Below, in pieces: positions 1-19,609 of a stretch of DNA of 64,000 bases. The DNA comes from Winkia neuii. GTDB lineage: Bacteria; Actinomycetota; Actinomycetes; Actinomycetales; Actinomycetaceae. Both the position numbers and the translations under genes were made by a program. Location: NCBI RefSeq assembly GCF_029011175.1, contig NZ_CP118946.1:310001-374000 (forward strand), read 5' to 3'. The notes beneath the pieces are model-generated. The model made no database searches and was not told where the DNA came from. It was given only the letters and a program-made list of their open reading frames with translations. Each line of letters opens with the position of its first letter. Within the stretch, counting starts at the first letter, position 1.

Positions 1-1662
1 GGGTTTGTTGGTATTGCATCTGACGGGCGCTCCCTAGAAGGCCTACTACAGTCCCCGGTTATCACGGCTAAAACTGCGATAGGGAATGGGGCAAGCGCAG
101 GGCAGGCCCTCCAAATGGGCAGACGCCAGCTAGACATGCTTCTACTCACTTTGATTGCGGATGTGGCGCGCTCTGCCGCCTCGGTAGATATTACTGCCCG
201 CCCCGGGGTCGGGTATGTGCGCATGGTAAGCCCTGGGGCTTGCGCGCGTTGCGCTATCCTCGCGGGCCGCTTCTACAGGTGGAACACCGGGTTTCTCAGA
301 CACCCTAATTGCGGGTGCGTACACATCCCAGCGAGGCAGTCGCGTAAAGCTGCGGCTATTAAAGAAGGCTACATCGCTGACCCGTACGCATATTTTCGTT
401 CCCTGCCTCTTGTCGAGCAGAACCGTCTCTTGTCTAAAGCGGGCGCGCAGGCAGTAAGAGATGGCGCGGATATATTCCAGGTAGTGAATTCCCGGCGCGG
501 TAGGACCAAAACCGGGATGTTCACCACCGAAGGTATGAGCACACGCGGGCACGCAGCAGGAATACTAAAACGTGGCCAGCGTAGGGCAACCCCCGAGCTC
601 ATCTACAAATGGGCGAAAGGAGATAGGGGGCAAGCTCAAAGGCTGCTTCGCGAGCACGGGTATATTCTCCCGGGTGGGCAAAACCCCGTTGGGGTGCTCC
701 GTGGGGCACGTGAGGGGTTTGGCCAATACGGTAAAGGTGGGCGTGCAAAAGCCTCCACGCAGGCCGTATTAGAAGCTCGCCAACGCGGCTGGCGCGACCC
801 GAATAACGTTTATACGATGACTGCGGCAGAACGCCGCCTCTACGTTGCAGAACGCGATTATAAGGAAGTACTGGTCGGGCGTAACCCGTGGACTACTGCG
901 GCGGTAGAGCGCAGGGGTGGGGCCAAAATTGGTGGCACAGATGAGCCCCTAACCGCGCAGATTGCTGCCTCAGTCGAATCAACGTATAGGGCTGAGCTTA
1001 TGGCCGCGATGCGCCCAGGCGGAATCCTTTCCAAAGAGGTAGCGCGCAGGCCCGACCAGTATCTACCTACCACCCGATTAGGCAGAAAAACAGTAGGGAA
1101 GAAATCCCCGACTCCTGCTGCTAGCGGGAGGGGAGGAGCTAAGCCGCCTAGTGGCCCAAAACGGGTGTCGAGTAGTGCTGATATGCCACGGTGGCGGCGC
1201 GAAGCCGAAATCCACACGTCTGACGTAGAGCCTATGCCACGGTCAGAATACGAGGAGATAGCGCGACGGCTTAACCCGGCGACAGAAGAAAACATGAAAG
1301 TCAGCCTCTACGGGAGTTCGCGGGGGAAAGGGGGTCATCTAGACGAGGATGCGGGAGTAGGCAAAACTCATTACCCGTCCGAGTGGACAGTCGAGGACGC
1401 TTTAGACGCGATTAATTACACCCAAAACTATCCCGAGTGGATCACGGAAAACTCGTCTGGAGAAGGTATGTATGATCTTCGGGCCGAATACAAAGGCGTT
1501 TTGATGGAAGTAACAATCAACATCAAACGCAAAGGCAGACGCCAACGACCACATGCTTTCCCCGTAACGGGTGATGGGGTATACATGGTTACGACAAAGA
1601 AAAGTATAATTAAACCGTGGAACGGGCCAGTGGACTGGGAAGGTTTCAGGAGGGTGGAATGA
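1..1662 (+). CDS. MuF-type phage head protein with C-terminal EndoU-like toxin domain (5' end outside window)
   Basis: The frame is open from base 1, so the true start lies upstream and at least 553 codons are visible. A MuF-like core lies at about bases 220-330, with a CARC cysteine pair followed by HPNCGCVHIP, the usual putative metal-binding ending of phage Mu F-like minor head proteins. A Gly/Lys/Ser-rich linker (about 1090-1190) leads to a C-terminal domain from about 1300: GGHL, then GKTHYPSEW, then a GVLMEV strand and a PHAFPV...GVY ending. This resembles the bacterial EndoU RNase fold (GGH...GKT.FP.SW). MuF proteins are packaged in the head and some temperate phages fuse toxin domains to them; EndoU cleaves RNA. 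The stop overlaps the start of the next small gene, as in toxin/immunity pairs. The MuF call is firm; the EndoU call rests on motifs only, and the spacing after GGH differs from the classical pattern. Confidence 0.72.
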   Translation, partial: GFVGIASDGRSLEGLLQSPVITAKTAIGNGASAGQALQMGRRQLDMLLLTLIADVARSAASVDITARPGVGYVRMVSPGACARCAILAGRFYRWNTGFLRHPNCGCVHIPARQSRKAAAIKEGYIADPYAYFRSLPLVEQNRLLSKAGAQAVRDGADIFQVVNSRRGRTKTGMFTTEGMSTRGHAAGILKRGQRRATPELIYKWAKGDRGQAQRLLREHGYILPGGQNPVGVLRGAREGFGQYGKGGRAKASTQAVLEARQRGWRDPNNVYTMTAAERRLYVAERDYKEVLVGRNPWTTAAVERRGGAKIGGTDEPLTAQIAASVESTYRAELMAAMRPGGILSKEVARRPDQYLPTTRLGRKTVGKKSPTPAASGRGGAKPPSGPKRVSSSADMPRWRREAEIHTSDVEPMPRSEYEEIARRLNPATEENMKVSLYGSSRGKGGHLDEDAGVGKTHYPSEWTVEDALDAINYTQNYPEWITENSSGEGMYDLRAEYKGVLMEVTINIKRKGRRQRPHAFPVTGDGVYMVTTKKSIIKPWNGPVDWEGFRRVE

Positions 1663-1952
1663 GTGAGTATGAAGATGCTTTCTGGGAAGCCTGCGATGAA
1701 GTTCGCACCCAGTTTACTGACGAGGAATGGGAAAGCAGGTACGGCTATGTGATAATGGCCGACGGCCCATTCAAACCAGCCTGGGATGCGGGAATGTGGA
1801 AGGCTAAAGAGGTCGGTTTTACCTACAGTGACGCTCTATTAGCGAAACTCGATAAGCTTATTCCCCCTTTGGATGACCCAGACGCTGACGGAATCGACGA
1901 CATAATGCGGCAGACAATTGATCTGATGAAAGAAATCAAGAAAAAGGCCTAA
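1659..1952 (+). CDS. small acidic protein, putative immunity to the MuF-EndoU toxin
   Basis: 97 codons. I chose the ATG at 1659 because it overlaps the toxin stop (ATGA) and follows a good ribosome site (caggagggtgg); a longer upstream reading inside the toxin gene has no support. The product is acidic and soluble, with aromatic residues near its N-terminus and a Lys-rich end (KEIKKKA). I do not recognise the family. Its size, acidity, translational coupling to the toxin domain and position before two tandem terminator-like hairpins are what an immunity gene would show. An alternative is a small head accessory protein. It shows no obvious resemblance to the gene in the same position in prophage 2 (46969-47283). 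Confidence 0.6.
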   Translation: MSEYEDAFWEACDEVRTQFTDEEWESRYGYVIMADGPFKPAWDAGMWKAKEVGFTYSDALLAKLDKLIPPLDDPDADGIDDIMRQTIDLMKEIKKKA

Positions 1953-1978
1953 GCCCACACCACATAATTCTAGTTTTA

Positions 1979-2012
1979 CCCACTAGACCACACCGGTCTG
2001 GTGGGTTCTTTT
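1979..2012 (+). terminator. intrinsic terminator after toxin/immunity pair
   Basis: An 11-bp stem (cccactagacc with ggtctggtggg, one mismatch) is followed by a T-rich run (ttctttt). It separates the MuF/immunity pair from the scaffold gene within what is otherwise one late operon. Confidence 0.6.
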
Positions 2013-2015
2013 ATA

Positions 2016-2046
2016 CCCGCACCCGCGACGGGTGGCGGGTTTCTTT
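2016..2046 (+). terminator. second tandem hairpin before scaffold gene
   Basis: The stem cccgcacccg with cgggtggcggg (one bulged base) has a short loop and is followed by tttctttcc. It directly follows the first hairpin, so transcription reaching the capsid genes would be attenuated twice or restarted. Confidence 0.45.
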
Positions 2047-2070
2047 CCGAGCGATTTGGAGAAAAACAAA

Positions 2071-2553
2071 ATGGCAGAAACAAACACCACCAAAACCGAG
2101 CCCGAAAAAACCGAGGAACCCCTCGGAGAAGGCGGCGTGAAAGCCCTCAAAGCGGAGCGCGATGCCCGCAAACAGGCAGAACGCCAGGTACAAGAACTGA
2201 CCGAAAAACTAGACGCCACCACCAATGATCTAGAAGACAAACTCGCAGAAGCAACCAAGCAGGGCAAAACCACCTCCGCCCAGCTCGCCCGCATGAACGT
2301 CGCGTACGAGCAAGGAGTGCCCGCCGATCTAATCGGCTACCTGCAAGGAGAAACTGCCGAAGAACTCGCCGAGTCAGCCAAGACCCTCATGGGTCACCTG
2401 TCTGCCAACAAAGCCGAGCCTGAACCCAAAACCCCAGGCCCACGCCCTGACCTAACCCAAGGCAAAGCCCCCGGAGCATCCGGCCCGGCACTCAACTCGC
2501 CACAGCTAACCGCCGCGCTGGCAAAAGCCGTTGGCGTAACACTATCCGAATAA
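2071..2553 (+). CDS. phage scaffold protein
   Basis: 160 codons from ATG 2071, which has a ggag ribosome site; the in-frame ATG at 2032 has none. The product is highly charged, with a long coiled coil (about residues 25-75, heptads rich in E, K, A, L) and a Pro/Gly-rich tail, the make-up of siphovirus capsid scaffolding proteins. It would line the inside of the prohead and be removed on maturation. It sits immediately upstream of the major capsid gene, as scaffolds normally do. It has little sequence identity to known examples that I can judge by eye; the call is by composition and position. Confidence 0.75.
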   Translation: MAETNTTKTEPEKTEEPLGEGGVKALKAERDARKQAERQVQELTEKLDATTNDLEDKLAEATKQGKTTSAQLARMNVAYEQGVPADLIGYLQGETAEELAESAKTLMGHLSANKAEPEPKTPGPRPDLTQGKAPGASGPALNSPQLTAALAKAVGVTLSE

Positions 2554-2595
2554 AAACCGAACCTACCCTCCAAATCATTTGGGGAAAGGACAAAA

Positions 2596-3513
2596 ATGGC
2601 TATCACAGCAGCAACCAAAACCACCGATTTTTCCGGCTTCATCAAACCCGAAGAATCCGCACCAATATTCGACGAGGCCGCCCGCGTATCAGCGGTACAG
2701 TCCCTAGCAAGGCAGATCCCGCTGGGCATTTCCGGGCAGGAAATCCCCGTAGTCACCTCAAAACCGGTAGCAAACTGGACCAGTGAAGGCGGGCAGAAAC
2801 AAACCACTAACATGGGGCTCGCACTGCGCACCATGACCCCAAAGAAACTAACCGCTATCGCAGTAGTTTCCGCAGAAGTCGTACGCGCCAACCCCGGCAA
2901 CTACGTCACCCAGCTACGGCCCGCACTCGCGGAAGCATTCGGGCGGGCATTCGACAACGCCGCACTGTATAACACCGGTGGCGATGGTACAGGTACTGGG
3001 CCCTTTGACGATTACGTTGCTAAAACAACCAAGGCAGTCACCCTAGGGACGTCAAAGAAAGGCGTTTATGGGGATCTTGTTACCGGCCTTGACCTGCTCC
3101 TAAAGGACAAGAAGAGGGCAACCGGGTTCGCTTTTGATACCGGTATGGAAACCACTTTCCTGGGGCAGCTAGATCAGACCGGGAGACCGCTGTTCGTGCC
3201 TGGGGAGGCAACCGAGACCGCGTCTGCGGTAGCCCACGGCTCCCTGCTTGGGCGCACGACTGTTCTCGCTGAGGGCATTGGAAACGGACCGGTCGAAGGG
3301 TTCCTGGGGAACTGGTCTAAGGCCGCCTGGGGCGTAGTTGGCGGCATCAACTACAGGATTTCTACCGAGGCCGCAGTCACAATAGGGGACAAGCTCGTCT
3401 CCCTATTCGAGCACAACCTCGTAGCGATTCTGGCTGAAGCCGAGTACGGATTCGTCCTCGAATCCGCCGATCATTTCGTCAAATTCAATGCTGCAACCGG
3501 CGAGGCAGCATAG
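2596..3513 (+). CDS. major capsid protein (HK97 fold)
   Basis: 305 codons with ribosome site ggaaagga. The product has the usual length and layout of HK97-fold capsid proteins from actinobacterial siphoviruses: an N-arm, a region with TSKPVANWTSEG and KKLTAIAVVSAEV (E-loop and spine helix), and a C-terminal A domain with a GINYRIS...LFEHNLVAILAEAEYGF pattern. It forms the icosahedral shell. Scaffold lies upstream and connector genes downstream, supporting the call. The stop codon overlaps the GTG of the next small gene (tagtg), so the two are translationally coupled. No defect is seen. Confidence 0.9.
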   Translation: MAITAATKTTDFSGFIKPEESAPIFDEAARVSAVQSLARQIPLGISGQEIPVVTSKPVANWTSEGGQKQTTNMGLALRTMTPKKLTAIAVVSAEVVRANPGNYVTQLRPALAEAFGRAFDNAALYNTGGDGTGTGPFDDYVAKTTKAVTLGTSKKGVYGDLVTGLDLLLKDKKRATGFAFDTGMETTFLGQLDQTGRPLFVPGEATETASAVAHGSLLGRTTVLAEGIGNGPVEGFLGNWSKAAWGVVGGINYRISTEAAVTIGDKLVSLFEHNLVAILAEAEYGFVLESADHFVKFNAATGEAA

Positions 3514-3659
3514 TGGCCGCGCGTAAAAGCACTGCGGCTAAACCGGCACGGGGACGCGAGGACGGCCTAGTTGACCTCGCGTCCCCCTCCGGGGCGAAAG
3601 TGACCGTGGCAGAAGCATTAGCAGACCGACTACTAGCAGGCGGATACAAACCAGCCTGA
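3513..3659 (+). CDS. small phage head protein, unknown role
   Basis: 48 residues from a GTG that overlaps the capsid stop. The N-terminus is basic (KSTAAKPARGRE) and the C-terminus reads VTVAEALADRLLAGGYKP. Small proteins ending in a similar ADRLLAGGY-like motif occur right after the capsid gene in many actinobacterial siphoviruses and are thought to be head-assembly or connector accessories. The gene is real by position, coupling and the ribosome site spacing to the following gene; its function is not known. Confidence 0.65.
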   Translation: MAARKSTAAKPARGREDGLVDLASPSGAKVTVAEALADRLLAGGYKPA

Positions 3660-3675
3660 CGGCAAGGAGGTAGGC

Positions 3676-4107
3676 GTGGGCGCAACCATAACCAGCGTGG
3701 GAGAAGCATTAGGCCGAAAAATCGCCGACCCAGACGAAATCGCCCAGGTGAACTTTTGGATTAAAGGCGCAGAGCTCCTAATCAAAAGACGCCTCGGCCC
3801 CTTAGAAGGACTGGACGCGGAAGCCGTCGAATACGTTATCTCTCAGGCAGTAGCAAGACGGGCCCTAAACCCTGAGGGCAAACGCACCGAACGCATAGAC
3901 GACTACTCCTACACGCTTAGCGCAGACTCAGCGGCAGCAGAAATAACTATCACAGACCTGGAATGGGCAATGCTAACCCCTGACGACAACACGATCGGCG
4001 GCGCATTCTCCATAACCCCAACAAGCCCCACATATGTGAGGCGAGCCGGGCGAGGAACAGGAAGAGAGGTAAACCATGACAGTTTCAATGGCAGTGCGTT
4101 CTGGTAG
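3676..4107 (+). CDS. head-tail connector (adaptor) protein
   Basis: 143 residues starting at GTG 3676 after a strong aaggagg. The product is mostly helical with two hydrophobic helices and matches the size and order of Gp6/Gp19-type adaptor proteins that form the ring under the portal. The sequence VNFWIKGAELLIKRRLGPLEGLDAEAVEYVISQAVARR is typical of these all-helical adaptors. Its end overlaps the next gene by 32 bases. The call is mainly from position (first gene of the connector group) and predicted structure. Confidence 0.7.
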   Translation: MGATITSVGEALGRKIADPDEIAQVNFWIKGAELLIKRRLGPLEGLDAEAVEYVISQAVARRALNPEGKRTERIDDYSYTLSADSAAAEITITDLEWAMLTPDDNTIGGAFSITPTSPTYVRRAGRGTGREVNHDSFNGSAFW

Positions 4108-4441
4108 GCGCGCCGCAGAAAAACTCATGGTCGACAACTGCCGCATAACCAGGACGGGGGAACCTACCATCGGCCCAGACGGGCGCGAGCATATTAGTGA
4201 AACCACCGTTTACGAGGGCAAGTGCAAGGTGCAAACCTACGAGCCTTATGAGCAAACCCCAAACACCGCCGGGCACACAGCAGTAGTACAACGCTACTCA
4301 GTGCACGTCCCCTACGGGGCGGGACCATTTGAAGTAGGGGACAAGGTAACTGTAACTGGTAGAGAATTTCGCGTAGCTGGCCTACACGAAAAAACCTACC
4401 AGACCGCAATCAGGCTACTAGTGGATGAGGTCGTAATCTGA
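4076..4441 (+). CDS. head closure / stopper protein
   Basis: 121 residues with ribosome site agaggtaa. The pattern is beta-rich (DNCRITRTGEP..., VQRYSVHVPYGAGPFEVGDKVTVTGREFRVAGL), characteristic of the DUF6093-like head-closure proteins that cap the connector in actinobacterial siphoviruses. It overlaps the preceding adaptor and abuts the next gene (stop tga and start atg overlap at 4441), so the connector genes are translationally coupled. The role is assigned by family resemblance and gene order. Confidence 0.7.
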   Translation: MTVSMAVRSGRRAAEKLMVDNCRITRTGEPTIGPDGREHISETTVYEGKCKVQTYEPYEQTPNTAGHTAVVQRYSVHVPYGAGPFEVGDKVTVTGREFRVAGLHEKTYQTAIRLLVDEVVI

Positions 4442-4839
4442 TGGGCATTATCAGCATTGACACGTCCGAGGTGCGCGCGCTCGCGGCGGATTTACGGCAA
4501 GTGGATTCGCGCCTGGCCCGCCATGTGGTCCCGGTGCTGCGCAAGGGTGCGGTGAATGTCAAGAATCAGCTTGTGAAAGAAGCTGAGGAGTCAACGCACT
4601 TTCGCGGTTTTGCACCTGCGATTAGCTTTGATGAGGGCTCCTTCGCGGGGTTTGGTGGAGGCGAGTTCAAGGTAGATATTGGGCCTACTAAAGGCGCGCC
4701 AGGTTCCCTAGCTAATATTGCCTACTTCGGTACTAGCAGGGGCGGGGGGACAGTTCCGGACCCGATGGGCGCGTTAGAGGCGGAGGCCCCAGGGTTTGCT
4801 GACGCGCTTGGGGAGTTCGCCGAAAGGATGCTCACATGA
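4441..4839 (+). CDS. minor capsid / tail-joining protein (HK97 gp10-like)
   Basis: 132 residues starting with the ATG that overlaps the previous stop. The pattern (IDTSEVRALAADLRQVDSR near the N-terminus, a central VKNQLVKEAEESTHF, and a C-terminal ANIAYFGTSRGGG followed by LEAEAPGFADALGE) fits the HK97 gp10 group of tail-completion proteins, which help join tail and head. It lies between the head-closure and tail-terminator genes, the expected place. No defect is seen. Confidence 0.75.
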   Translation: MGIISIDTSEVRALAADLRQVDSRLARHVVPVLRKGAVNVKNQLVKEAEESTHFRGFAPAISFDEGSFAGFGGGEFKVDIGPTKGAPGSLANIAYFGTSRGGGTVPDPMGALEAEAPGFADALGEFAERMLT

Positions 4840-5258
4840 AACAGGCAATACTTGAGCTGCGCAAACTCTTAACCGGGGAGGGGCTGCCCTGTTATGTGGC
4901 AGATATGAGAAAACCTGTCCTGACCTCTGCGGACTACCCGTACATAGTAATCACTGCTGGGGTAGGGGAGAAGCCCTCGGAGGATCTAGCCGGCAAGATG
5001 CGCGATCTAGACGAGTGGGTGCGCATAACTATTGCCGATGCCACGCCAATAAATGCTTTGGATTCGGCAGAAAAATGCGAAGCACTCCTACAAGGGCACG
5101 TCCTCCCCCTGGCCGGGTGGCGCACTTTCCCGATAGATGTTCGCCCAGTGTTAGGCGTAACCGTGGACCGCACCGTGACTATTAGCGACACGAACACGCA
5201 CCCCGCCTACCTGGTAATAGAAGCCCACATAATGGCCACACCAATAAGGAGGTGCTAA
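4836..5258 (+). CDS. tail terminator protein
   Basis: 140 residues overlapping the preceding gene by four bases (ATGA). The product is an alpha/beta protein with N-terminal MKQAILELRKLL and a beta-rich body ending in a strand that reads HPAYLVIEAHIMA. Size and position, immediately before the tail tube gene, match gpU/gp17-like terminators that stop tail-tube growth and bind the head connector. Identification is positional with moderate structural support. Confidence 0.68.
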   Translation: MKQAILELRKLLTGEGLPCYVADMRKPVLTSADYPYIVITAGVGEKPSEDLAGKMRDLDEWVRITIADATPINALDSAEKCEALLQGHVLPLAGWRTFPIDVRPVLGVTVDRTVTISDTNTHPAYLVIEAHIMATPIRRC

Positions 5259-5470
5259 TGGACAAATTAGTAACCGTATACGACAAGAACACAGGCGAGC
5301 GGGTTCCCTATAAGGTTCCCGCTCATTTTGTTGGGCACCCACTTTTAGGCCCTGATTGGGTCCGAAACAAACCCAACACAAGATCTATTCCCCCAGCAGA
5401 TATGAACCCTGTTGAAAGCCAGCCAGAAATACTTCCAACCGAAAATACTGAAGGAGAATACAATGCCTAA
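5258..5470 (+). CDS. small phage protein between tail terminator and tail tube
   Basis: 70 residues. I placed the start at ATG 5258, which has aaggaggtg correctly spaced; the in-frame ATG at 5252 overlaps that site. The N-terminus (KLVTVYDKNTGERVPYKVPAHFVGHPLLG) is conserved in style with short proteins found just before tail-tube genes in other actinobacterial phages; the C-terminus is Pro/Glu-rich. It overlaps the next gene by eight bases. Function unknown; it may be a tube chaperone or linker. Confidence 0.65.
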   Translation: MDKLVTVYDKNTGERVPYKVPAHFVGHPLLGPDWVRNKPNTRSIPPADMNPVESQPEILPTENTEGEYNA

Positions 5471-5975
5471 AACCCTAGCTGATGGGCGCATTAAACTGAC
5501 TGTTCTAACCCAGAAGCCAAAAGACCTGCGTGCTCCCACCGTAGACGAGCTAAAGAAGGGCCTGGAAGGGTCCTGCCAGGTACTCAAATCTGATTACAAG
5601 CTCGGCGCGACCGCTTCCGAAACGATCAACGAGCCTGCCCTATGCACGGCCTCGAACGCAACAGTGTTCGGCGCTTCAAACTATGAAGGGTCTGTCTCAC
5701 CATTCATCCTCAAAGATGAACACGGGAAAACCCTAGCTGATGAAGCCACCGTTTGGGAGGCCCTCCGCACTAAAGGCACCACGCTTTGGCTGGTAGAACG
5801 CGAAGGCCCCGAATACGACAAGGACTACGAGGTAGGCGACGAGATAGACATTTATGAGGTCGTAACCGACACCCCGCAGAAGCCCTCTGACCGGACCGGC
5901 TACATCAAGAGAACTATCCCGCTGGGCGTACAAAATGCCTACGAGAATGTGAAGGTTGTAGCCGCCGCAGGGTAA
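5463..5975 (+). CDS. major tail tube protein
   Basis: 170 residues from ATG 5463 with ribosome site ggagaa; an upstream in-frame ATG (5412) lies inside the preceding gene. The product is a single beta-sandwich with alternating strands and acidic turns (WLVEREGPEYDKDYEVGDEIDIYEV), matching the compact tail-tube proteins of siphoviruses with non-contractile tails. The following long inverted repeat and the tail chaperone genes agree with this call. No immunoglobulin-like extension is present. Confidence 0.8.
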   Translation: MPKTLADGRIKLTVLTQKPKDLRAPTVDELKKGLEGSCQVLKSDYKLGATASETINEPALCTASNATVFGASNYEGSVSPFILKDEHGKTLADEATVWEALRTKGTTLWLVEREGPEYDKDYEVGDEIDIYEVVTDTPQKPSDRTGYIKRTIPLGVQNAYENVKVVAAAG

Positions 5976-6029
5976 TCCCCCTCGGCGGTTTACTTTTGCC
6001 GCCCCCAAACACTGCTTTCAGCCGGTAGT

Positions 6030-6071
6030 GGGGCGGGTAGGAGCATCTGGTGGCCAGGCCCTACCCGCCCC
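6030..6071. other. perfect 11-bp inverted repeat between tail tube and tail chaperone
   Basis: The arms ggggcgggtag (6030-6040) and ctacccgcccc (6061-6071) are perfectly complementary around a 20-base loop. No T-run follows, so it is not a standard terminator. It could reduce transcription from the highly expressed tube gene into the chaperone gene or stabilise mRNA ends. Confidence 0.5.
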
Positions 6072-6138
6072 AGGGGGCGGCCCCAAAATAATTAGGCCAC
6101 CATCCAAAACCGCTCTTACATAAACTTTGGAGGCCACC

Positions 6139-6552
6139 ATGACAACACTGCCCGAAGGCGTACGCACCTACGAAACCGCCCAGCCCACCCCGGAAACCTT
6201 TGACCTTACCGCCTGGATGGAAGGCCTCGCCCCCACAAAGCGAGCCTGCACAATCTATGCCCGCGCCGACCTACTATCCCAGCTGGACCTACTAGCAGAA
6301 AAAATCAGGATAGCCGAACGAGCCGGACAGGAGGCAACCCCCCTGCGCGAACAGTTCCTAAAGCTCAAAAGCGAGGTCGAAGCCTCCGCCCTCGACATCG
6401 TGGTGCGAGCATGGTCCCAAACTCGCATAAAACGCAACGCTCAAGCATTAAAGAAGAAGGCATCACCGACCCAGACGAAGTGGGTTTACACCAGATCGCC
6501 CAGCAGATCGAATCCCCCACCGGGTTTGGAGTTGACCAGCTGCGCAAACTAA
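6139..6552 (+). CDS. tail assembly chaperone, short form (gpG-like)
   Basis: 137 codons in the zero frame, starting at ATG 6139 with an upstream ggagg. The first about 105 residues (LTAWMEGLAPTKRACTIYARADLLSQLDLL..., a helix-rich acidic/basic body) are the plausible protein; after about base 6450 the zero frame turns into low-quality Ser/Pro/Thr-rich sequence, as expected if the biologically important reading leaves for the -1 frame. Tail chaperones bind the tape measure during tail assembly and are classically made as short and frameshifted long forms. It lies upstream of the tape measure, as required. Confidence 0.72.
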   Translation: MTTLPEGVRTYETAQPTPETFDLTAWMEGLAPTKRACTIYARADLLSQLDLLAEKIRIAERAGQEATPLREQFLKLKSEVEASALDIVVRAWSQTRIKRNAQALKKKASPTQTKWVYTRSPSRSNPPPGLELTSCAN

Positions 6553-6641
6553 ACGAAATATCCCCCCAGCAAGCCTCCCTAATCGCGGCCACAGTAGTAT
6601 CAGCAAACCAAGGGGCCGTGGAGGTAAAAATCCCTTTTTAG
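6411..6641 (+). CDS. tail assembly chaperone -1 frameshift extension (gpT-like)
   Basis: This -1 frame overlaps the short chaperone between 6411 and 6552 and ends at a TAG at 6639-6641. It has no credible start of its own and reads as real protein from about 6450: EEGITDPDEVGLHQIAQQIE, then KLNEISPQQASLIAATVVSAN. The switch probably occurs in the ttaaagaagaagg stretch at 6448-6460; no textbook X-XXY-YYZ heptamer is present there, so the exact slip site is uncertain (A-AAG is a candidate). The product would be the long chaperone form. Part of its reading continues past its own stop; see the next entry. Confidence 0.65.
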   Translation: MVPNSHKTQRSSIKEEGITDPDEVGLHQIAQQIESPTGFGVDQLRKLNEISPQQASLIAATVVSANQGAVEVKIPF

Positions 6642-6991
6642 TAGACGCCCTCGACACCAACAAAAACGCCGGGATACTCCAGCTGTTACGCACCGCAAAA
6701 GAATGGCATATCCCACCGCTAGTAATGGCAGGAGTGAACCCACCACAGGCCGGGTGGGCATGGGAAGATACCATGCTCGCCCAGGCCCACTCCGTCTTTG
6801 AAAAAACCAGAATCTGCACCGGGTGCGGCTACCCCACACGCCTCGCCCACGACGACGACATGGACGGCTGGTTCGAGGTCAAACAAACATTCTGCATCGC
6901 CTGCGAAACAAAAGACCGCTTCCAGGCAGACACTGAAAAAACCAAGCCCACCCCAGGCATGGTCCCAACCCTAGAAATAACAAAACAATAG
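6638..6991 (+). CDS. second -1 extension of tail chaperone with zinc-ribbon-like cysteines
   Basis: This frame lies -1 to the gpT-like frame. The heptamer CCCTTTT at 6632-6638 fits X-XXY-YYZ exactly in the gpT frame and is followed at once by that frame's TAG. Reading on after a -1 slip gives LVDALDTNKNAGILQLLRTA..., then a CTGCGYP...CIAC cysteine set typical of a small zinc ribbon. No ATG, GTG or TTG with a ribosome site precedes the clearly protein-like part; the first ATG (6725) is internal and has no site. Small Cys-rich proteins of this type sit between chaperone and tape measure in many actinobacteriophages, usually as separate genes. Here it seems fused by a second frameshift; independent initiation at 6725 is the alternative. 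Confidence 0.6.
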   Translation, partial: LVDALDTNKNAGILQLLRTAKEWHIPPLVMAGVNPPQAGWAWEDTMLAQAHSVFEKTRICTGCGYPTRLAHDDDMDGWFEVKQTFCIACETKDRFQADTEKTKPTPGMVPTLEITKQ

Positions 6992-7001
6992 GAGGCCCCC
7001 T

Positions 7002-10000
7002 TTGGCTGACCGCAGTATCAAAGTAACTCTTAGGGCAAACGTCGCAGACTTCACCGCCCAAATGAAGAACGCCTCCTCCAGCCTAGAAGCAGTCGTAAAA
7101 GCCGCAGACAAAACCGGTACTGTAGCCACAACCAGGATGGGCCGCCTAGCACAATCCGCACAACTACAAAGAGGCGAATGGGAAAAAGCCGGCTCAGCCC
7201 TAACCAAGTTCGGCCTAGTCACCACAGGCGCGCTCGCGGGCTCGATAAAAGCCGCAGTCGACTGGGAATCCGCCTTCGCGGGAGTCCGCAAAACCGTAGA
7301 CGGTACTCCTGCAGACCTAGCAAGAATAGAATCCGGGCTACGGGCCATGACCGGGCAAGTATCTGCCTCCCACGGAGAAATCGCAGCAGTAGCAGAAGCC
7401 GCAGGCCAGCTAGGCGTATCCAAAGAAAACATTGTCGGATTCACCAAGACAATGGTTGACCTTGGCGAAGCAACCAACCTGTCAGCCCAGACGCCGCCAT
7501 GACCCTAACCAGGTTCATGAACATCATGGGCACCAGCCAAGATAAAGTCTCCAACCTAGGCTCATCAATCGTCCACCTCGGCAACAACTACGCCACAACA
7601 GAATCCGAAATCGCCGCAATGGGAATGCGCCTAGCCGGCGCAGGCCACCAAATTGGCCTGTCCGAAGGACAAACCCTAGGCCTGGCTGCGGCCCTCTCAT
7701 CTGTCGGTGTAGAGGCAGAAGCCGGCGGATCAGCATTCTCTCGCGTAATCACCACCATGCGAAACGCCGTAGACACCGGCGGCCCACAACTAGAAACCTT
7801 CGCGCGAGTAGCAGGAATGACCGGCAAACAATTCCAGCAGGCCTTCAAACGTGACGCCGGTAGCGCAATCGGCGCATTCATCAAAGGCCTAAACGGAATA
7901 GAAGCTGCTGGCGGCTCAATGCAACCAGTACTCGAACAACTAGGCCTAACCGACCTACGCGTAGGCGATGCTCTACGCCGCGCCGCCTCCGCTTCCGACG
8001 TATTCTCCAAAGCCATGCGCGACGGGCAAAGCGCTTTTGACGAGAACAAAGCACTCGCGGAGGAAGTCGCGCGCAGGTATGAGACGGTCGGGGCCCGGTC
8101 GAAAATGGCGTGGAATCAGATTAAAGATGCTGCCATTAGCACCGGGGATAGTCTGCTACCTGTAGTGGGTAATTTAGCTGATGGGGTGGCAGGAGTCGCT
8201 AAAGGGTTTGCCTCCCTGCCTAAACCAGTCCAGACCGCTGCCGCAACACTTACAGGCGTGGTAGGCGTATCTGCCCTACTGACTGGAGGGTTTTTGAAGC
8301 TAACTCCGGCTGTTTTAGAGACCATTACCGCCCTGGAAAGCCTCGGCGTGGTATCAGCAGGCGCGAAAGCCAAAGCAGGCGGCCTAATATCTGCCGTCAG
8401 TAAGATTGGGGCGGTAGTAGCAGTTGCGGGGGCCGCACTTACGGCACTTAAAGCCGCCCAACAGTGGCTTGAGGATCCACCTTCTAAGGGAATAAAGCAA
8501 TACACTAACGCCATTTTAGAAATTAAGAAGGCGTCAGATGTGCCGAAGCTTCTCAAAGATACCGGGGAGAATTTCCTTGGTATAAAAATTGGGGCAGCCG
8601 CAGGCGCAAAAAGCGTAAAGCAATACTCCAAAATGGTTAGTGAGGCATCCCGCCTAACCGGTTCATGGAGCGAAACCTACGAGAGACTCGTGGCTAAAGC
8701 CCCAGGAGTTTCGCTGGACCCCGCTCTTAAAGTTGCTGACGAGCTAAAAGAGTATGGCAAAGCCCTGGCAGGGCTCCCCCTGAACAAAGCCCAGGCGCAG
8801 TTTAGGCTGATGACCGACGCTGCCGGAGGGACCAGCAAAGCAATCAGAGATCACTTGAAACTGATGCCTGAGTATGCTCAAGCGCTCCGGGATAAGGCCC
8901 AGGCGGCAGGCCTATCTCTTAGTCAGGATCAGCTTGCTAAGCTCGCAGTTGGCGAGCTCACTCTTGAGACTGATAAGAATGGGCAGGCACAGCTGAAAGC
9001 TGCTGACGCGGCTAACGCGGCGGGTGAAGCTTTATCCCGGTGGGGTGGGCATGCGCTCACCGCAGGGGACGCGGGTGAACAGTTACGCCAGAAGCTGCAG
9101 GGGGCCTCTGAATCCTTTATTAATGTGGGAGAGGCCGCCCAGAGTGGTAGTGGCGGGTTTGAGGACTTCGCCTCAAAACTTGAAGAACAGATTGAGTCCA
9201 TGAAGACCTGGCAGGCCTCCATGGCAGTTCTAAAGCAAAAGCTCTCCCCGGAGGCTTTCTCCCAGCTACTCGATATGGGGGCTACCGGTGCGCAGATTGC
9301 GAAAGATCTAACCGATGGGGTTAACGATGAGGCCCAGTGGGCACAATTCAATAACCTCATGGGGGCGAAAGGTAAGCAGTCCTCACAGGTTTTCGCGGAG
9401 GCTATGGATGACTCCTCGTTTACAGCTGCTGTCCAGCAGGTGATGGCACAAAAAGGCGAACTCGCGGCAGTCGCGTTCTCAGATGCCGTGATCAATAAGG
9501 GTATGACTTTGCAGCAAGCTGCCCAGGCTTTAGATGTGAAACTAGATATTGACGCAACGACTGACAAGGCGAAAGCTAAAGCAGACGAGGCGGCAAACTA
9601 CACAACAGCAAAAAAGCCGCAGATGACGCTGGAGATGCTAACAGACCCGGCTAGGATTGCTGCCGGCGAGACCGCACAAATGGCAGAGGGACTATCGCCA
9701 GCTATGAAACTTGGGGCAGACCCAAGCGGGGCAATTGGGGTATTCAACTCAACCCAGGCAGACGGCTCTTCACGGAACCCGATTATGCTTTTAGGCGCTA
9801 TGGCGGGCCCCGCATTGGGGGTTATAAATGCGACTGAGGCTGACGGGTCATCGCGTAGGCCAGTAATGACCCTGGACGCTAACGGTAGACCCGCGATTGG
9901 GAGCATGAACTCGGCAAAGGGCTACGGTGACCGTCTCAGCTCGTGGATTAGCGTGAACGCTACCGACCACTTCACAGGGCCGGTATGGGGGATACTCAGC

Positions 10001-10465
10001 TCGATCCCCTCAGTAAAAACAATCACCGTGGTTGCTAACGTTGTGCGCTCTGTAGCTGGTATGTTGGGGTTTGCCTCTGGCGGCCCAGTATGGGGGCTAG
10101 GGACGGGAACATCTGACTCTATCCCGGCACGCCTATCAAATAATGAGCATGTTATTACGGCGGCGGAAGTAACCGCAGCTGGTGGGCATGGCGCGATATT
10201 CGCGCTAAGGCACATGATGCACACTGGGCAGATCCGAGACCTGCTGCGCGAGCGGGGCTTCGCCGAAGGGGGAACCCCAGCACTGCCTTATGCGCCACGG
10301 CCACTTATCACATCTGGTGGCGCAATGGCCTCACGGGTTGCGCACGAGGTCAGCGTGTCACTAGCGGGCCAATCTCTCGCGCTTGTCCTAGACGATGGCA
10401 CCCGTTTTAACGCGCACATCGAAGAGGCCGTGGACCGCAGGATCATAGCTTCTTCGGCAATGTGA
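7002..10465 (+). pseudogene. tape measure protein, interrupted by a frameshift
   Basis: It starts at TTG 7002 after aggagg. The first frame (7002-7502) gives a normal N-terminus of a phage tape measure (TP901/PhageMin tail family; VDWESAFAGVRKTVDGTPADLARIESGLR...) and then stops at 7500-7502. The second frame (7499-10465) continues the same family at once (TLTRFMNIMGTSQDKVSNLG), so about 1,150 residues would form one protein if two bases were removed or one added near 7486-7495 (gcccagacgccgcc). The body has long helices, hydrophobic stretches at about 8380-8460 and 10020-10090, and a terminal GGPVWGLGTGTSDSIPARLSN motif typical of tape measures. It sets tail length. Either the prophage is defective or the base call is wrong. 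Confidence 0.8.
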
Positions 10466-10486
10466 AAGACAGGTTAGAGAGGCAAA

Positions 10487-11206
10487 ATGACACTTAAAGG
10501 ATTTATTGCTGCCCACTCGGGGCTGCCCTCATTCATGATAGACGCTGGCCCTTACCGGCTTTACAGGCAGCGCGTACTGATCGATAAGGGAGTGGGGCCT
10601 ACGATCATTTCTGATCCCGCAGCGCCCGTTGGTAAACCGACCGAGTACCACGTGCAAACGGCGGAAGATAACTGGAGTGAGCTACTTACGCGCCCAGGGA
10701 TTGGGGCCGCCTACCTCCTTTCTGATGCGCAAGGCCGGGGCCCCGTGCCAGTCAGGATCACTAACGGCGATGACACCGGGTGGGATTGTGGGGCAGCCGT
10801 ATATCGCCCGGCGAATCGGGCCGCACCAGTAGTTAGATACAGTTTCCCGCCTCGCAGCACGGGAACCCTGCAATTCAGTGCTGGGCCGGAAGCAACGGGA
10901 CGCGTGAGGGAACTGGTAGCAAGACAGGAGCCGTTCTTTTTGCTGCATGACCATAGCGTGTGCCGGATCCCTAGCTGCGATGTCCCAGCTACTCGCCTTA
11001 TCGTCCCAACCGGGGACATTACCGAGTCTAGGACGGCGCGAATAGATGCGGCGCACCGAGCCTGGAACATGCAGTACACGCGCCTTCCAGAATCCGCAGC
11101 ATCTAAACAGATTTTCCTCACCTGGGGAGACTGGGTGCGCGCAGAAGACTCGTGGGAAAACTCTTCTTACGTTGAGCTTGCTGAGACGATTGGGGGCCTA
11201 TCATGA
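10487..11206 (+). CDS. minor tail / distal tail-type protein
   Basis: 239 residues with ribosome site gagaggc. The first gene after the tape measure in siphoviruses is normally the distal tail protein that starts the tail tip, and the beta-rich sequence here (VRYSFPPRSTGTLQFSAGPEATGRVRELVARQEPFFLLHD..., later TRLIVPTGDITESRTA) fits a Dit-like or tail-tip protein in actinobacterial phages. Its end overlaps the next gene by four bases. I see no receptor-binding or enzymatic motif. Assignment is mainly positional. Confidence 0.65.
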   Translation: MTLKGFIAAHSGLPSFMIDAGPYRLYRQRVLIDKGVGPTIISDPAAPVGKPTEYHVQTAEDNWSELLTRPGIGAAYLLSDAQGRGPVPVRITNGDDTGWDCGAAVYRPANRAAPVVRYSFPPRSTGTLQFSAGPEATGRVRELVARQEPFFLLHDHSVCRIPSCDVPATRLIVPTGDITESRTARIDAAHRAWNMQYTRLPESAASKQIFLTWGDWVRAEDSWENSSYVELAETIGGLS

Positions 11207-12240
11207 GGCCGGGCCCATCCCTGAAGGACCTTTTAGGACCGGTCAAGGTGGGGGTGCAAGTACGTGTAACTAGGGGCCGGCAAACTCTTGCGGAAAATCT
11301 GCCGGCCTCTAACGCGCGACTAGAGTATGCGTCAGATCGTGTTGTCCCCGGCAGGCTTACCTATGATCTGCCGGCCTCGTGGGCCCCCGCTCACCCCCTG
11401 GCCCCAGCCAATAATTATGGGCAGCGCTCCGAGGTAACGATTTCGTTTGAGACTGGAGGTAGGGTCTATGAGACTCCGCTCGGTCAGTTTATCCATGAAT
11501 CATGGGGGCCAGTTTCAGGGGACACTTTCACGGTTGAAGCCCTAGATTTGATGCAGATCCCCGAGTGTGACCCGATGGTGTGGCCTTCATCCCCACCTGA
11601 GGGGGCGACGCTGATCTCTGAGATGCAACGGCTGGCAACTTTGCGCCTGCCAGTGAAATCGGACCTGTACCGGGACCCGATTATTCAGCGTGGCTCACAA
11701 TGGGGAACGTCTCGGACGGAGGCAATACGAGACCTTGCGGCCTCTCAGGGAGTCGAATACGGGGTCAAAGCGGACGGCTGCCTACATGTGTGGAAGCCTG
11801 ATAACGCGGGGCTGAAACCCGCAGCCTACTACACCGGCAAAGACCTACTGGTAGAAGCTCCTGCTACCGGTTTTGCCCGCCGCCCCAATAGGTTCCTCGC
11901 AGTAGGGAAGAAAGACAAAGAAGAATGGGTCGCATGGGCAGACCGCGCAGGGTTCCCATTCGATAAAGATTACGGGGTTATCACCCAGCGGGAAGAAATC
12001 TCTGCCCCCGAAGCCTATAAGGATGTTCAGGCGGCAGCGAATAAGGCAATGCGTGAGTCTATGGGCGCATTGAAAAAGAGATCTCTAGGCATCGTTCCAG
12101 ACCCTCGCCTTGAAGCTGGAGACGTGATCGGGATATCAACCCCAGCTGGGGAAGAAATTGTTGGGCGCGTAGTTGCTTATTCTCTGCCACTTGGCGGGGA
12201 AGAACCCATGCGCGTTGATTTGGAGGAATTTACATGGTGA
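11203..12240 (+). CDS. minor tail protein (tail-tip, Tal-like position)
   Basis: 345 residues overlapping the previous gene (ATGA). Beta-rich N-terminal half (VTRGRQTLAENLPASNARLEY..., RLTYDLPASWAPAHPLAPANNYGQRSEVTISFETGG) and a C-terminal segment ending GDVIGISTPAGEEIVGRVVAYSLPLGGEEPMRVDLEEFTW, a pattern seen in actinobacterial siphovirus tail-tip proteins of the DUF5047 type. It probably forms the hub below the distal tail protein. It overlaps the next gene by seven bases. Confidence 0.65.
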   Translation: MRPGPSLKDLLGPVKVGVQVRVTRGRQTLAENLPASNARLEYASDRVVPGRLTYDLPASWAPAHPLAPANNYGQRSEVTISFETGGRVYETPLGQFIHESWGPVSGDTFTVEALDLMQIPECDPMVWPSSPPEGATLISEMQRLATLRLPVKSDLYRDPIIQRGSQWGTSRTEAIRDLAASQGVEYGVKADGCLHVWKPDNAGLKPAAYYTGKDLLVEAPATGFARRPNRFLAVGKKDKEEWVAWADRAGFPFDKDYGVITQREEISAPEAYKDVQAAANKAMRESMGALKKRSLGIVPDPRLEAGDVIGISTPAGEEIVGRVVAYSLPLGGEEPMRVDLEEFTW

Positions 12241-14849
12241 AGCCGTCTTTATGGTTAGATAAGTCCCCATCTGACGGGGTGCGGGGGCAGCTATCCCGCC
12301 CGGATGCTGCCTTATACGGTCGAGTGGAATCAATCGTTGACGGGATTTTGTCGGTCCGGTTTGAAGGGGCAGAGGGATATCCGCCAGTGCGCGTGCGTGG
12401 AGATGGGGGAATTGCCGCAGTTGGTGCGCGAGTACCATTGGTGCGTGACTCGTCTGGGCGTGTGGTCCTTGCTGGTGGGGCTAACGACTTCCCAGAGGGC
12501 GCGGACCCAGTCCCCACAGGGTATGCAGGGCAGGCCCTGTTAGAAGCTTCAAAACGCGCGGGCGAGGCTAAAAAACAGATCGATGAGTTACAGGTTAGAC
12601 TCCCGAAAGAACTAGATGAGGCTAAGGGCCGTATCGACGTAGCATTTGAGAACGCTAACCGGGTAGCCTCCCAGTTTGAGGCGGAGAAGGCCCGCGTTGA
12701 TGGTGAGCTTGCTAAAGCGTTAGGCGCAACAGACGAGGTAAAAAAGTCGGTTGTCGTGGCGACGTCGCAGGCTGATAACGCTAAACGGCTTGCGGAGGAG
12801 GCCAAAACCAAGGCGGATAGCGTGGGCGGGAAAGTTGCTGAAGCACAGCAGACGGCCGAGGACGCGAACGGTAAGGCAGAAGTAGCAAGCAGTATCGCCA
12901 GTATGGTCCAGATGAAGCTGTCTGGCGTGAAAGACGGCTTGCATGATGTAAAGAGTGCAGCGGATGAGGCTAAGAAGGCTGCGTCTGAGGCGGATTCTAA
13001 AGCTAGCGCTGCGGCGAAAACCGCAGGCGAGGCTGGCAGCAATGCCACATCAGCATTACAGGATGCGAAGGCGGCGAAAACTGCCGCCGATAAAGCCACC
13101 TCGCAGGCGGAGAACGCGGCGAAGCTTGCTGGTTCTGCTAGTGAGGCTGCCACGCGCGCGCAAACCGCTGCCGATGGTAAAAGCAAGATTACGCGGTCAA
13201 CCACTACCCCCTCTGGTGCCGGGCATGCGGGGGACGTGTGGTGGCAGTACACCGACTCATCCCTAATTGGCAAGATTATCGGGCAATGGGTTCATGACGG
13301 CACCGCGTGGGTGAAAACTGATGTGGGGGCCGAAATAGTCGCAGATTTGACGGTGGATAAGCTCAAGGCTGGCACTGGCAGTTTTGACCGGGCGGTAATT
13401 AAGAAGCTTGTGGCGGATCAGGCATTCAGCAATGAAATGTATGCCAGTAGGATTATTTCTGCTGAGAGTGGCAACCTGGTTCTAAATGGTGATCTGACGG
13501 GCGGGCAGGCCCCGTGGAGTAAGGAGCTTAGCTTTATTGCTGATGGTGCCCCTCCTGCCTGTTCGGGGTACTTAAACGCGGATGCGAGGCCTGCCGTTAT
13601 AAAGCAGGTGCACGGGGGAACCCCTATCCGCCTCGAGCCTGGGCGCGAGTACGCGTTCACTGCCTGGGTATCGGCGGACATTCGGGACTCGCGCATGTTC
13701 TTAGAGCTACGTGATAGCGAGGATAATCATGCTATCGACGTCACTCAAGGCGGGCCGCTCGAAGGTGTCCCGGATTCGCGTAATGGGAATCCCCAGTATC
13801 TTATTGGCGGGTTTGAGATCCCCACGGAGTGGACCAAAATCGGGTGCCGCTTCCGGGTAAACCCGGCCAGGGGGTATCACCTTGGTGCCTTGTATGTGAA
13901 TCACAGCTCTAGTGATACGTGGGCGTACCAGGCTATCGCTGGGATCTCGATAACGCCGATGGTGGGTTCAACCCTGATTGAGGGCGGGGCTATTACTACC
14001 TCGAAGCTTGCCGCTCACGCCGTGGATGTGGAAAAGCTGAATGTTACGGAAAAAATGGGTGCGAAGCTTGGGGAGTTTGTAAAGGTGAAAGCAGATAATA
14101 TTCTTGCTGGTTCAATTGATGTGGCGTTAGATTTCACCGCCGGGGGCAGGATCGCCGGCGCGGAAGTCGTAGGCTCAAAGATCATTGGCGGGCAGGTAAT
14201 CATAGATAATCCATCAAGGCAGCCAACATTCCAAAACGTGTATGCGGATTATTCTGATCCGGCGGTTAACACTTTCCACGTGGAAGAGAAAACCACTTCC
14301 AGTACGAAGATTTTGCCTGACCAAATCGTACAGACTGGCAAGGTTGCGCTCTATAAGCGGGTGTTTAATAAGGGCCGCCCTGGAGGGGGATCGCCAGGGC
14401 ATGGTGGTTCGAAAGACCTGTTAGATAGGTACACCCAAGAATTGAAGATTGATTCTGGTGGGATTGTCGTGCAGCAGGTCAATTCTAAAAATGATCGTGG
14501 GGTGGCGATATCTGCCTGGGGTATTGGTACTCCTGAGCTGCGTATTGATAATACGGGCGAGGTTGGCGCGTTTATGCGGCAAATCCAGATCCAGACCGGC
14601 ACCGTCCATTGCAAACCAGCAGTTAGGGATGTGGCGACCGTGCGGTGGACGTTCCCCACCCCTTACCCGGCCCCACCGATGATTTTTTGCAACCCTGAGA
14701 ATTGGGCGCACGTAGTCGCATCCGCATACAAGGTGACTAACACGTTTGCTGATATTGCGGTGCGTAATTTCTCTGGTGTGGTTCCCTCTCAGGATGCAAT
14801 CCGGGTTATGGCAATCCCCACCAATATTGACACCATGCGCAAGCAGTAA
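12234..14849 (+). CDS. large minor tail / central fibre protein with coiled coil
   Basis: 871 residues. The N-terminal 100 residues form a small beta domain; residues about 100-320 are an Ala/Lys/Asp-rich coiled coil with many AxxA and KAAxEA repeats; a module with VWWQYTDSSLIGKIIGQWVHDGTAWVK follows at about 330; a jelly-roll-like segment (about 430-590) resembles carbohydrate-binding domains; the end is beta-rich. Such proteins form the trimeric tail fibre that touches the host surface. The coiled-coil region is internally repetitive, so length may vary between relatives. Gene order (after the tip protein, before lysis) supports the call. Confidence 0.75.
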   Translation: MVKPSLWLDKSPSDGVRGQLSRPDAALYGRVESIVDGILSVRFEGAEGYPPVRVRGDGGIAAVGARVPLVRDSSGRVVLAGGANDFPEGADPVPTGYAGQALLEASKRAGEAKKQIDELQVRLPKELDEAKGRIDVAFENANRVASQFEAEKARVDGELAKALGATDEVKKSVVVATSQADNAKRLAEEAKTKADSVGGKVAEAQQTAEDANGKAEVASSIASMVQMKLSGVKDGLHDVKSAADEAKKAASEADSKASAAAKTAGEAGSNATSALQDAKAAKTAADKATSQAENAAKLAGSASEAATRAQTAADGKSKITRSTTTPSGAGHAGDVWWQYTDSSLIGKIIGQWVHDGTAWVKTDVGAEIVADLTVDKLKAGTGSFDRAVIKKLVADQAFSNEMYASRIISAESGNLVLNGDLTGGQAPWSKELSFIADGAPPACSGYLNADARPAVIKQVHGGTPIRLEPGREYAFTAWVSADIRDSRMFLELRDSEDNHAIDVTQGGPLEGVPDSRNGNPQYLIGGFEIPTEWTKIGCRFRVNPARGYHLGALYVNHSSSDTWAYQAIAGISITPMVGSTLIEGGAITTSKLAAHAVDVEKLNVTEKMGAKLGEFVKVKADNILAGSIDVALDFTAGGRIAGAEVVGSKIIGGQVIIDNPSRQPTFQNVYADYSDPAVNTFHVEEKTTSSTKILPDQIVQTGKVALYKRVFNKGRPGGGSPGHGGSKDLLDRYTQELKIDSGGIVVQQVNSKNDRGVAISAWGIGTPELRIDNTGEVGAFMRQIQIQTGTVHCKPAVRDVATVRWTFPTPYPAPPMIFCNPENWAHVVASAYKVTNTFADIAVRNFSGVVPSQDAIRVMAIPTNIDTMRKQ

Positions 14850-14860
14850 AGGAGTGAACC

Positions 14861-15211
14861 GTGCGAGTACCTACGACTAGTGAGCTTAGGGAGCTTTCCT
14901 TTTTTGAGGTTAGCCGGCTTAGAGATGAGATCAGCGAGGAGTTTAACCGCCAGCAAATAATCGAATACCTACCCACTAACGTTGAGGCTTTACAGGCGGA
15001 GTATCAGAAAGCAGCCGGAGTGCCCCCGGCGGGCTCTAACTGGCAGGCCCCGACGGGGTTAAAAACCGCCTACGCGGTCGGGCAGGTAGTCACCCATAAC
15101 GGGGTCAGGTGGAAGAGCCTATGCTCTTTCAACACTGCCGAGCCCGGCACTAACCCGGCTTTGTGGGGAAAAGAAGACGAAGGAGAAGCTGAGGAGGCCG
15201 CGAATGAGTGA
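14861..15211 (+). CDS. phage protein with CBM5/12-like C-terminal module
   Basis: 116 residues from GTG 14861 (ribosome site aggagtg). The C-terminal half has the spacing of a small carbohydrate-binding module of family 5/12: NWQAPTGLKTAYAVGQVVTHNGVRWKSL, then AEPGTNPALWGK, with tryptophans in the usual places. It may help the tail tip bind cell-surface polysaccharide. The N-terminal half is helical. It overlaps the next small gene by eight bases. The binding role is inference. Confidence 0.6.
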   Translation: MRVPTTSELRELSFFEVSRLRDEISEEFNRQQIIEYLPTNVEALQAEYQKAAGVPPAGSNWQAPTGLKTAYAVGQVVTHNGVRWKSLCSFNTAEPGTNPALWGKEDEGEAEEAANE

Positions 15212-15368
15212 GCAGATTGATATAAACACTCTTCTTGAAAAATACGAAGCAGAACTTGCCCGCATGACCCGGCGGGCAATACTCGCAGAAGCAACTATCG
15301 AAGCTAAAGAACGCGAACTATCCGCACTAAAAAAACACGGCCTAAAAGATGGAGACGCTAATGAGTAA
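15204..15368 (+). CDS. small charged phage protein
   Basis: 54 residues from ATG 15204 (gaggaggcc ribosome site). Nearly all helical, rich in Glu, Ala, Arg and Lys (LLEKYEAELARMTRRAILAEATIEAKERE). It overlaps both neighbours, its end by eight bases with the gene starting at 15361, which supports real translation. I do not recognise a family; short helical proteins here could be fibre chaperones. Confidence 0.55.
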   Translation: MSEQIDINTLLEKYEAELARMTRRAILAEATIEAKERELSALKKHGLKDGDANE

Positions 15369-16008
15369 CTCGCACTGGAAGAAAGTAGCGTTGCCGGCAG
15401 CGACAGAACCACTCTTAGACGCGTGGAGAAAATTTGCCGATACCGCAGGCATAATCACCACAGCCAATTCGGTTGCTGAGGCCCGCCAAATACTCACCAC
15501 GGCAGCAGACAATGGGGTAAGCATTACAGCAACAACGCCAGCATATTTCGATATCCACGGGGTTCTGTATCGTGCTGATGGGCGCAAGAATGGGACGGTA
15601 TGGGTACTCTCGCCCCTAAATGAGGTGGAAGTCGATTCTCGTAAATACTCCACCGGTTGGAGTGGGCACCTCAACGAGAACCAGTTCCACGCGGCCTGCT
15701 CCACACAGCTACCGGCCCGCCCCTATGACCGGCTTGTCGCTGTCACCGCCGGGGCATATGGCAGGTGTACCAAAGGCCGAATGAATTTCGCGATTGTGGG
15801 CCATAATGGGGCATTCGCAGCAGCCAGGTGGGACCCTGACGAGGAGTCCTCAGTATCGGTAAGCCTGCAAACCGTTGTCCCGGCTGGGGAAGCCCCGAAT
15901 ATCAAGTGCGGCCCACAAGGCGGCTGGCGTGGCGGGGATGCCACACTCACCACTAATGACCGATTCAATTTCATGGTAGCTACCGCCTACCCAATAACAA
16001 TGGCCTAA
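15361..16008 (+). CDS. phage tail-associated protein of unknown function
   Basis: 215 residues. I prefer ATG 15361, overlapping the end of the preceding gene, over the in-frame ATG at 15349. The N-terminal part is helical; the rest is beta-rich (YFDIHGVLYRADGRKNGTVWVLSPLNEVE..., RWDPDEESSVSVSLQTVVPAG), like appendage or minor tail proteins found just before lysis genes in actinobacterial phages. It has no catalytic motif I can see. It ends just before a strong terminator that closes the structural operon. Confidence 0.6.
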   Translation: MSNSHWKKVALPAATEPLLDAWRKFADTAGIITTANSVAEARQILTTAADNGVSITATTPAYFDIHGVLYRADGRKNGTVWVLSPLNEVEVDSRKYSTGWSGHLNENQFHAACSTQLPARPYDRLVAVTAGAYGRCTKGRMNFAIVGHNGAFAAARWDPDEESSVSVSLQTVVPAGEAPNIKCGPQGGWRGGDATLTTNDRFNFMVATAYPITMA

Positions 16009-16028
16009 CAGACTGGCTGTAATACATA

Positions 16029-16053
16029 CCCACCCCGCTCGGGTGGGCTTTTT
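16029..16053 (+). terminator. terminator of structural operon
   Basis: The stem cccacc/gggtggg has a short loop and is followed by cttttttat. It lies between the last tail gene and the endolysin gene. Confidence 0.75.
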
Positions 16054-16087
16054 TATACCCAAAACCCAAAGAATGTGAGGAGCCCAT

Positions 16088-16945: not shown

Positions 16946-16948
16946 AAA

Positions 16949-17299: not shown

Positions 17300-17303
17300 G
17301 CTT

Positions 17304-17672: not shown

Positions 17673-17678
17673 CATTTA

Positions 17679-17717
17679 GGGGCACCCTGACCAGGTTTGG
17701 CCGGGGTGCCCCTTTTT
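17679..17717 (+). terminator. terminator of lysis operon
   Basis: An 8-bp GC stem (ggggcacc with ggtgcccc) is followed by ttttt. It ends the rightward phage late operon and faces the leftward lysogeny cassette. Confidence 0.8.
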
Positions 17718-17733
17718 CGGTTTTAATGGCCCT

Positions 17734-18104: not shown

Positions 18105-18162
18105 TTTGTTGTGGAACGATTAGGGGTGCGGGGCCCGCCCGCTTTGAACGGGCCCCTTTCGA

Positions 18163-18255: not shown

Positions 18256-18340
18256 GTTCACCTCCTTTGTTCGAACACTACTATTATACCCCCACCACTT
18301 ACATAAATGCAAATGGTGGAGGTAAATAACGGTTGATTGC

Positions 18341-19462: not shown

Positions 19463-19504
19463 CGTCGTGCCTTTCTGCGTGCCATCGGTATGCCACTAGA
19501 GTAG

Positions 19505-19531: not shown

Positions 19532-19572
19532 CCCAATATAGGTTTAGCGGCATTTTCCGCATCAGGGCAACG

Positions 19573-19603: not shown

Positions 19604-19609
19604 CTAGAG

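Follow-up and report, generated by a model that had tools for sequence, protein, structure and literature searches.

We found that the chaperone region at positions 6139-6991 of the window (the whole 64,000-nucleotide stretch analyzed, i.e., positions 310001-374000 of the 2.2-Mb single-contig genome of Winkia neuii) most probably represents a phage lambda-type G/G-T tail assembly chaperone gene with one programmed -1 slip, and that the first of its two apparent frame switches reflects a missing base. We place the probability of this reading at about 95%. The original prediction had proposed two successive -1 frameshifts in this gene. Its second switch stood up to comparison, with a slippery heptamer present at the homologous junction in relatives, but its first switch did not, being a one-base deletion relative to an intact copy of the gene.

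Gene organization of the tail region

The window contains a prophage siphovirus morphogenesis block at approximately 2-15 kb, which includes the major tail protein, the chaperone region and the tape measure gene (Table 1). Profile matches place the chaperone gene between the major tail protein and tape measure families, the latter from 7002 on. Three overlapping ORFs cover the chaperone region: ORF 1 extends from 6139 to 6552, ORF 2 is open from 6204 to a TAG codon at 6639-6641, and ORF 3 is open from 6536 to 6991. Each is in the -1 frame relative to the preceding one, and the ORF limits thus agree with the three successive readings described originally. The assignment as a tail chaperone also held, based on the similarity of the G and T parts to annotated tail assembly chaperones and on gene order.

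Downstream of the tail region, we observed a tRNA-Ser(gga) gene (19609-19694) and a small SRP RNA gene (19872-19967). A search for an attachment repeat revealed no shared exact word of at least 15 bases between window positions 15001-21000 and the left part of the prophage. A second phage remnant is located at 41694-49089 and contains genes for a probable HNH endonuclease, a terminase and probable head proteins. It is flanked by two tRNA-Ser genes (40403-40490 and 49132-49219), and its large terminase gene, judged from protein continuity only, is apparently split at ~43260 by the loss of an A in a short A run.

Table 1. Features of the tail chaperone locus and its neighbors (window coordinates)
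Feature	Position	Strand	Evidence and remarks
Major tail (tube) protein	5463..5975	+	phrog_2491, E = 6.4e-46; PF25595 Phage_TTP_16, E = 5.6e-52; directly upstream of the chaperone gene
G ORF, tail assembly chaperone, 167 aa when intact	6139..6641	+	In the window, 6139-6552 (frame 1) plus 6411-6641 (frame 3)
Missing A, first (non-programmed) switch	6450..6451	.	ATT-AAAGA in the window vs ATTAAAAGA in the IMG/VR copy
Shine-Dalgarno-like GGAGGT, possible stimulator	6620..6625	+	Ends 6 nt (GGAGG, 7 nt) 5' of the slip site
Putative -1 slippery heptamer C CCU UUU	6632..6638	+	Adjoins the G stop codon UAG
T part, 117 aa, CXXC...CXXC motif, predicted to be made only via -1 frameshifting	6638..6991	+	phrog_20192; tblastn; predicted fold
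Tape measure protein gene	7002..10465	+	phrog_13339, E = 2.7e-208; in the window, 7002-7502 and 7499-10465, with a missing A at ~7489

The first frame switch corresponds to a missing base

A near-identical copy of the region was present in an IMG/VR contig (IMGVR_UViG_2808606727_000001, designated L007). Its alignment with window positions 3636-9987 contained no substitutions and two one-base gaps; a longer alignment, over positions 735-12787, added a single substitution and no further gap. The first gap, at ~6450, coincides exactly with the first switch, where the window reads ATTAAAGA and the IMG/VR copy reads ATTAAAAGA. When an A was added at this position, segments 1 and 2 formed an uninterrupted ORF of 167 residues ending in ...VEVKIPF, as seen in L007/L010. 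Similarly, in a relative from Gleimia europaea (L003) the two segments form one 169-residue ORF (...VEVSVPF), and the alignment runs unbroken across the junction ('QALKDQGITD' against 'QALKEEGITD'). A single intact G ORF was found in the near-identical copy, in L003, L004, L005 and L048, and in Arthrobacter phages. Intact G matched the tail assembly chaperones of the latter as a continuous protein, e.g., that of Hum25 (34% over residues 17-163) and that of TripleJ (residues 12-166; tblastn E = 2e-7).

No in-phase slippery site was detected near 6450. The sole in-phase heptamer of the first overlap, GGGTTTG at 6522, was considered as the first slip site and rejected; it lies ~70 nt past the point where protein similarity has already changed frame. 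Because the near-identical copy with the extra A has a continuous G, relatives have one G ORF and GGGTTTG is located past the homology switch, the first switch does not appear to be programmed; on comparative grounds, it is a missing base and not a recoding event.

These data bear directly on the possibility that one chaperone gene uses two programmed -1 frameshifts, the second of which adds a zinc-ribbon segment. Such an arrangement would fit the three overlapping frames, each -1 to the preceding one, and the perfect heptamer at the second junction. However, the continuous G of the near-identical copy already refutes it for the phage lineage, and all close relatives possess one G ORF. In addition, the adjoining tape measure gene has the same type of one-base loss, and proteins of this family normally carry the Cys-rich segment as their T part (see below). 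We regard two programmed shifts as extremely improbable, and our literature searches found no described case of a double frameshift in tail chaperones. An equally improbable variant is that this strain truly carries the 6450 deletion and that its ribosomes regain the G frame through a second -1 slip at the short A run, such that functional G-T would need two slips.

Sequencing error versus recent deletion

The second gap, at ~7489 (CCC-AGACG in the window and CCCAAGACG in L007), splits the tape measure gene, which is intact in L010 as one open frame of 1161 codons. Single bases also disturb two more genes of this prophage for which the IMG/VR copy has intact versions: at genome position ~299122, an extra A splits an ERF-family recombination gene, and a T is lost at genome position ~297406, just past the start of an unnamed gene. 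Together with the two gaps, this makes four single-base indels in coding sequence that distinguish this prophage from the IMG/VR copy (299122, 297406, 6450 and 7489); most of them remove a base from a short run of A or T. Across the 12 kb of the tail region, the indels outnumber the single substitution, and for this reason sequencing error is favored over decay. By this comparison, the deletion at ~6450 is probably a sequencing or assembly error and is likelier to be so than a recent inactivating mutation. A published survey likewise attributed isolated, unclustered frame transitions, unlike conserved ones, to sequencing error or recent indels (PMC3711429).

Were both missing bases (at 6450 and 7489) true deletions in this strain, the prophage would be in decay and its chaperone and tape measure genes nonfunctional. 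This is possible in principle, as recombinant tracts with many substitutions separate the two prophages in their upstream part, so the two come from different strains and could carry true indel differences. Nevertheless, four single-base coding indels against one substitution in the tail region form an indel-heavy pattern, and a further apparent A-run loss affects the terminase gene of the separate phage remnant (~43260), which makes real decay rather unlikely. A hidden Markov frame-switch scan for indels, applied to the genome and a same-genus control, missed known indels and was not used as evidence. Even in a genome finished to a single contig, indels of one base can mimic recoding.

The second switch is a conserved, putative slip site

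In contrast to the first switch, the second one has the features of a programmed -1 slip. The heptamer CCCTTTT (6632-6638) falls in phase with G, as C CCT TTT TAG, and immediately precedes the stop codon, as the original prediction had stated. It is the only in-phase XXXYYYZ heptamer of the second overlap. A -1 slip at this site would give CCC UUU UUA GUA GAC..., which is open to 6991 and adds 117 residues past the slip. The predicted G-T peptide across the slip is ...KIPFLVDAL..., ...VKIPFLVDALDTNK. No ATG, GTG or TTG occurs in the T frame from the start of the open frame to codon 31 after the slip, confirming that the Cys-rich segment lacks a start of its own at the junction. In-phase XXXYYYZ heptamers occupied 0.34% of codon positions in the long ORFs of the window (0.08% for the strict form), and from these rates the chance of such a heptamer in a 35-codon overlap is ~12% (3% strict).

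We examined the homologous G/T junction in related phages and prophages and found in-phase heptamers in many of them; the alternative raised with the original prediction, a separate third gene with its own start and no conserved heptamer, failed for this switch. L003/L053 and L048 share CCCTTTT-TAG with the window at the identical residue, and their T frames are open only 1 and 3 codons upstream of the heptamer, respectively; CCCTTTT was also present at the G/T junction of Brevibacterium phage AGM1. Other heptamers at the homologous position included CCCTTTC (L004 and L031), CCCAAAA (BIM BV-113, Kukla, Faja, TripleJ, EvePickles, LuckyBarnes and Oerskovia L057), TTTTTTG (Molivia, Amigo and Hum25), GGGAAAA (Montesquieu) and AAATTTC (L050). 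Exceptions were L025/L049, which had no perfect heptamer (A GTT TTT TAG), and L026/L051, which had GGGTTTA plus a CGGTTTTTTAG end. Given the chance level of ~12% (3% strict), it is the recurrence of heptamers at the homologous position in relatives that makes the second switch convincing; by comparison, it is a genuine programmed -1 slip at CCCTTTT.

A different phase, +1/-2 rather than -1, was found in Frankenweenie, EhyElimayoE, L023, L055 and D_HF5_3. In four sequences with the homologous T part in this phase (L013, L014, L023 and L012), namely Frankenweenie and EhyElimayoE, which are Streptomyces phages, a prophage of Actinomycetaceae and a phage from saliva, the junction has GGGTTTCC or CGGTTTCG and no -1 heptamer.

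Regarding stimulatory elements, no stable RNA structure beyond chance was detected downstream of the slip site (z = +1.7 for 62 nt and z = -0.1 for 102 nt). The Shine-Dalgarno-like GGAGGT upstream of the site could help frameshifting. It is retained as GAGGT in L003 and occurs as GAAGT in L048, i.e., it is not clearly conserved.

Alternatively, T might be produced on its own through translational coupling (reinitiation) and not through frameshifting. In L003, a GTG overlaps the G stop (TAGTG), and T is annotated as a separate downstream CDS in the GenBank records of BIM BV-113, Montesquieu and D_HF5_3. However, in both the window and L048 the first start codon within T comes only at codon 31, deep in the conserved part, and the recurrence of heptamers at this junction across many relatives also argues against reinitiation, which we consider very unlikely. 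A programmed slip at CCCTTTT is the preferred explanation.

The Cys-rich segment is the T part of a chaperone family

The Cys-rich segment had been viewed as an unusual zinc-ribbon-like addition. Comparative analyses pointed instead to the normal frameshift-encoded T part of related actinophages, including Arthrobacter phages. It matched phrog_20192, a tail assembly chaperone family (E = 2.9e-9; profile positions 200-297 of 357), and tblastn searches with T matched the corresponding part of chaperone genes that are annotated as joined in Kukla, Faja, TripleJ, EvePickles, Molivia, Amigo and LuckyBarnes. Close prophage relatives found by T were from Gleimia, Arcanobacterium and Trueperella. An alignment of 11 diverse T parts (A1) was too diverse for collection scans, and a narrower alignment worked. 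By sequence similarity, the segment is an ordinary T part of the phrog_20192 chaperone family and not an extra domain.

T contains two CXXC knuckles, CTGC and CIAC. Of the four Cys residues, three (Cys 62, Cys 65 and Cys 88, A1 numbering) are invariant in the 11-sequence alignment. Isoptericola and Oerskovia T homologs (L055, L057 and L052) have lost the Cys ligands but conserve the remainder of the domain. Of these, L055 and L052 are apparently in the +1/-2 phase, and L057 has CCCAAAA. No Pfam zinc-ribbon match for T scored above threshold, and we found no zinc ribbon described in tail chaperones in the literature. A structure model of T had a pLDDT of 77, with low confidence in the poorly defined Cys region; with that region so modeled, comparison with the PDB returned nothing significant. 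The only viral models that scored well were those of the Arthrobacter phage chaperones, Faja (E = 1.9e-5) and, with a weaker match, Molivia, together with a single uncharacterized phage protein.

Proposed mechanism

The lambda G and G-T tail assembly chaperones are produced by -1 programmed frameshifting (PMC5009743). By analogy, we infer slippage at 6632, its efficiency and the roles of G and T as follows. Most ribosomes would read G to the UAG at 6639-6641, yielding a G protein of 167 residues in the intact gene. A minority would shift back by one base at C CCU UUU (6632-6638) and produce a G-T protein of ~284 residues, the last 117 of which are T. G would thus be in excess, with G-T made by occasional slippage; both may bind and coat the tape measure protein, and T may recruit the tail tube protein.

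These results remove a false case of "double frameshift" and assign the gene to the familiar class of tail chaperones. A minor gain is a set of actinophage chaperones with Cys-rich T parts, in which varied -1 heptamers, and in some cases a +1/-2 phase, occur at the same protein junction.

Comparison with known systems

The locus resembles lambda G/G-T in its position between the major tail protein and tape measure genes and in a predicted short G and longer G-T linked by a single -1 slip close to the G terminus. This likeness is drawn from gene arrangement; unlike in lambda, T is Cys-rich here and the putative slip site is CCCTTTT directly before the stop codon. The chaperone genes of Arthrobacter phages Kukla, Faja, TripleJ, EvePickles, Hum25, Molivia and Amigo also have an in-phase heptamer and are annotated as joined genes. 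Their T parts are homologous to that of the window over its length, including the CXXC pairs, but with 27-33% identity, and their heptamer is CCCAAAA or TTTTTTG instead of CCCTTTT.

The Gleimia europaea prophage (L003/L053) shows 54% identity in G and 49% in T, and has CCCTTTT-TAG at the same residue. In contrast to the window, its G is unbroken, and its GTG happens to overlap the G stop. Finally, phage AGM1 also has CCCTTTT between G (gp14) and a Cys-containing T (gp15). However, the two were deposited as separate genes, and gp15 (L006, 2410-2628) was named "translation initiation factor", very probably a wrong annotation that arose from its Cys pairs.
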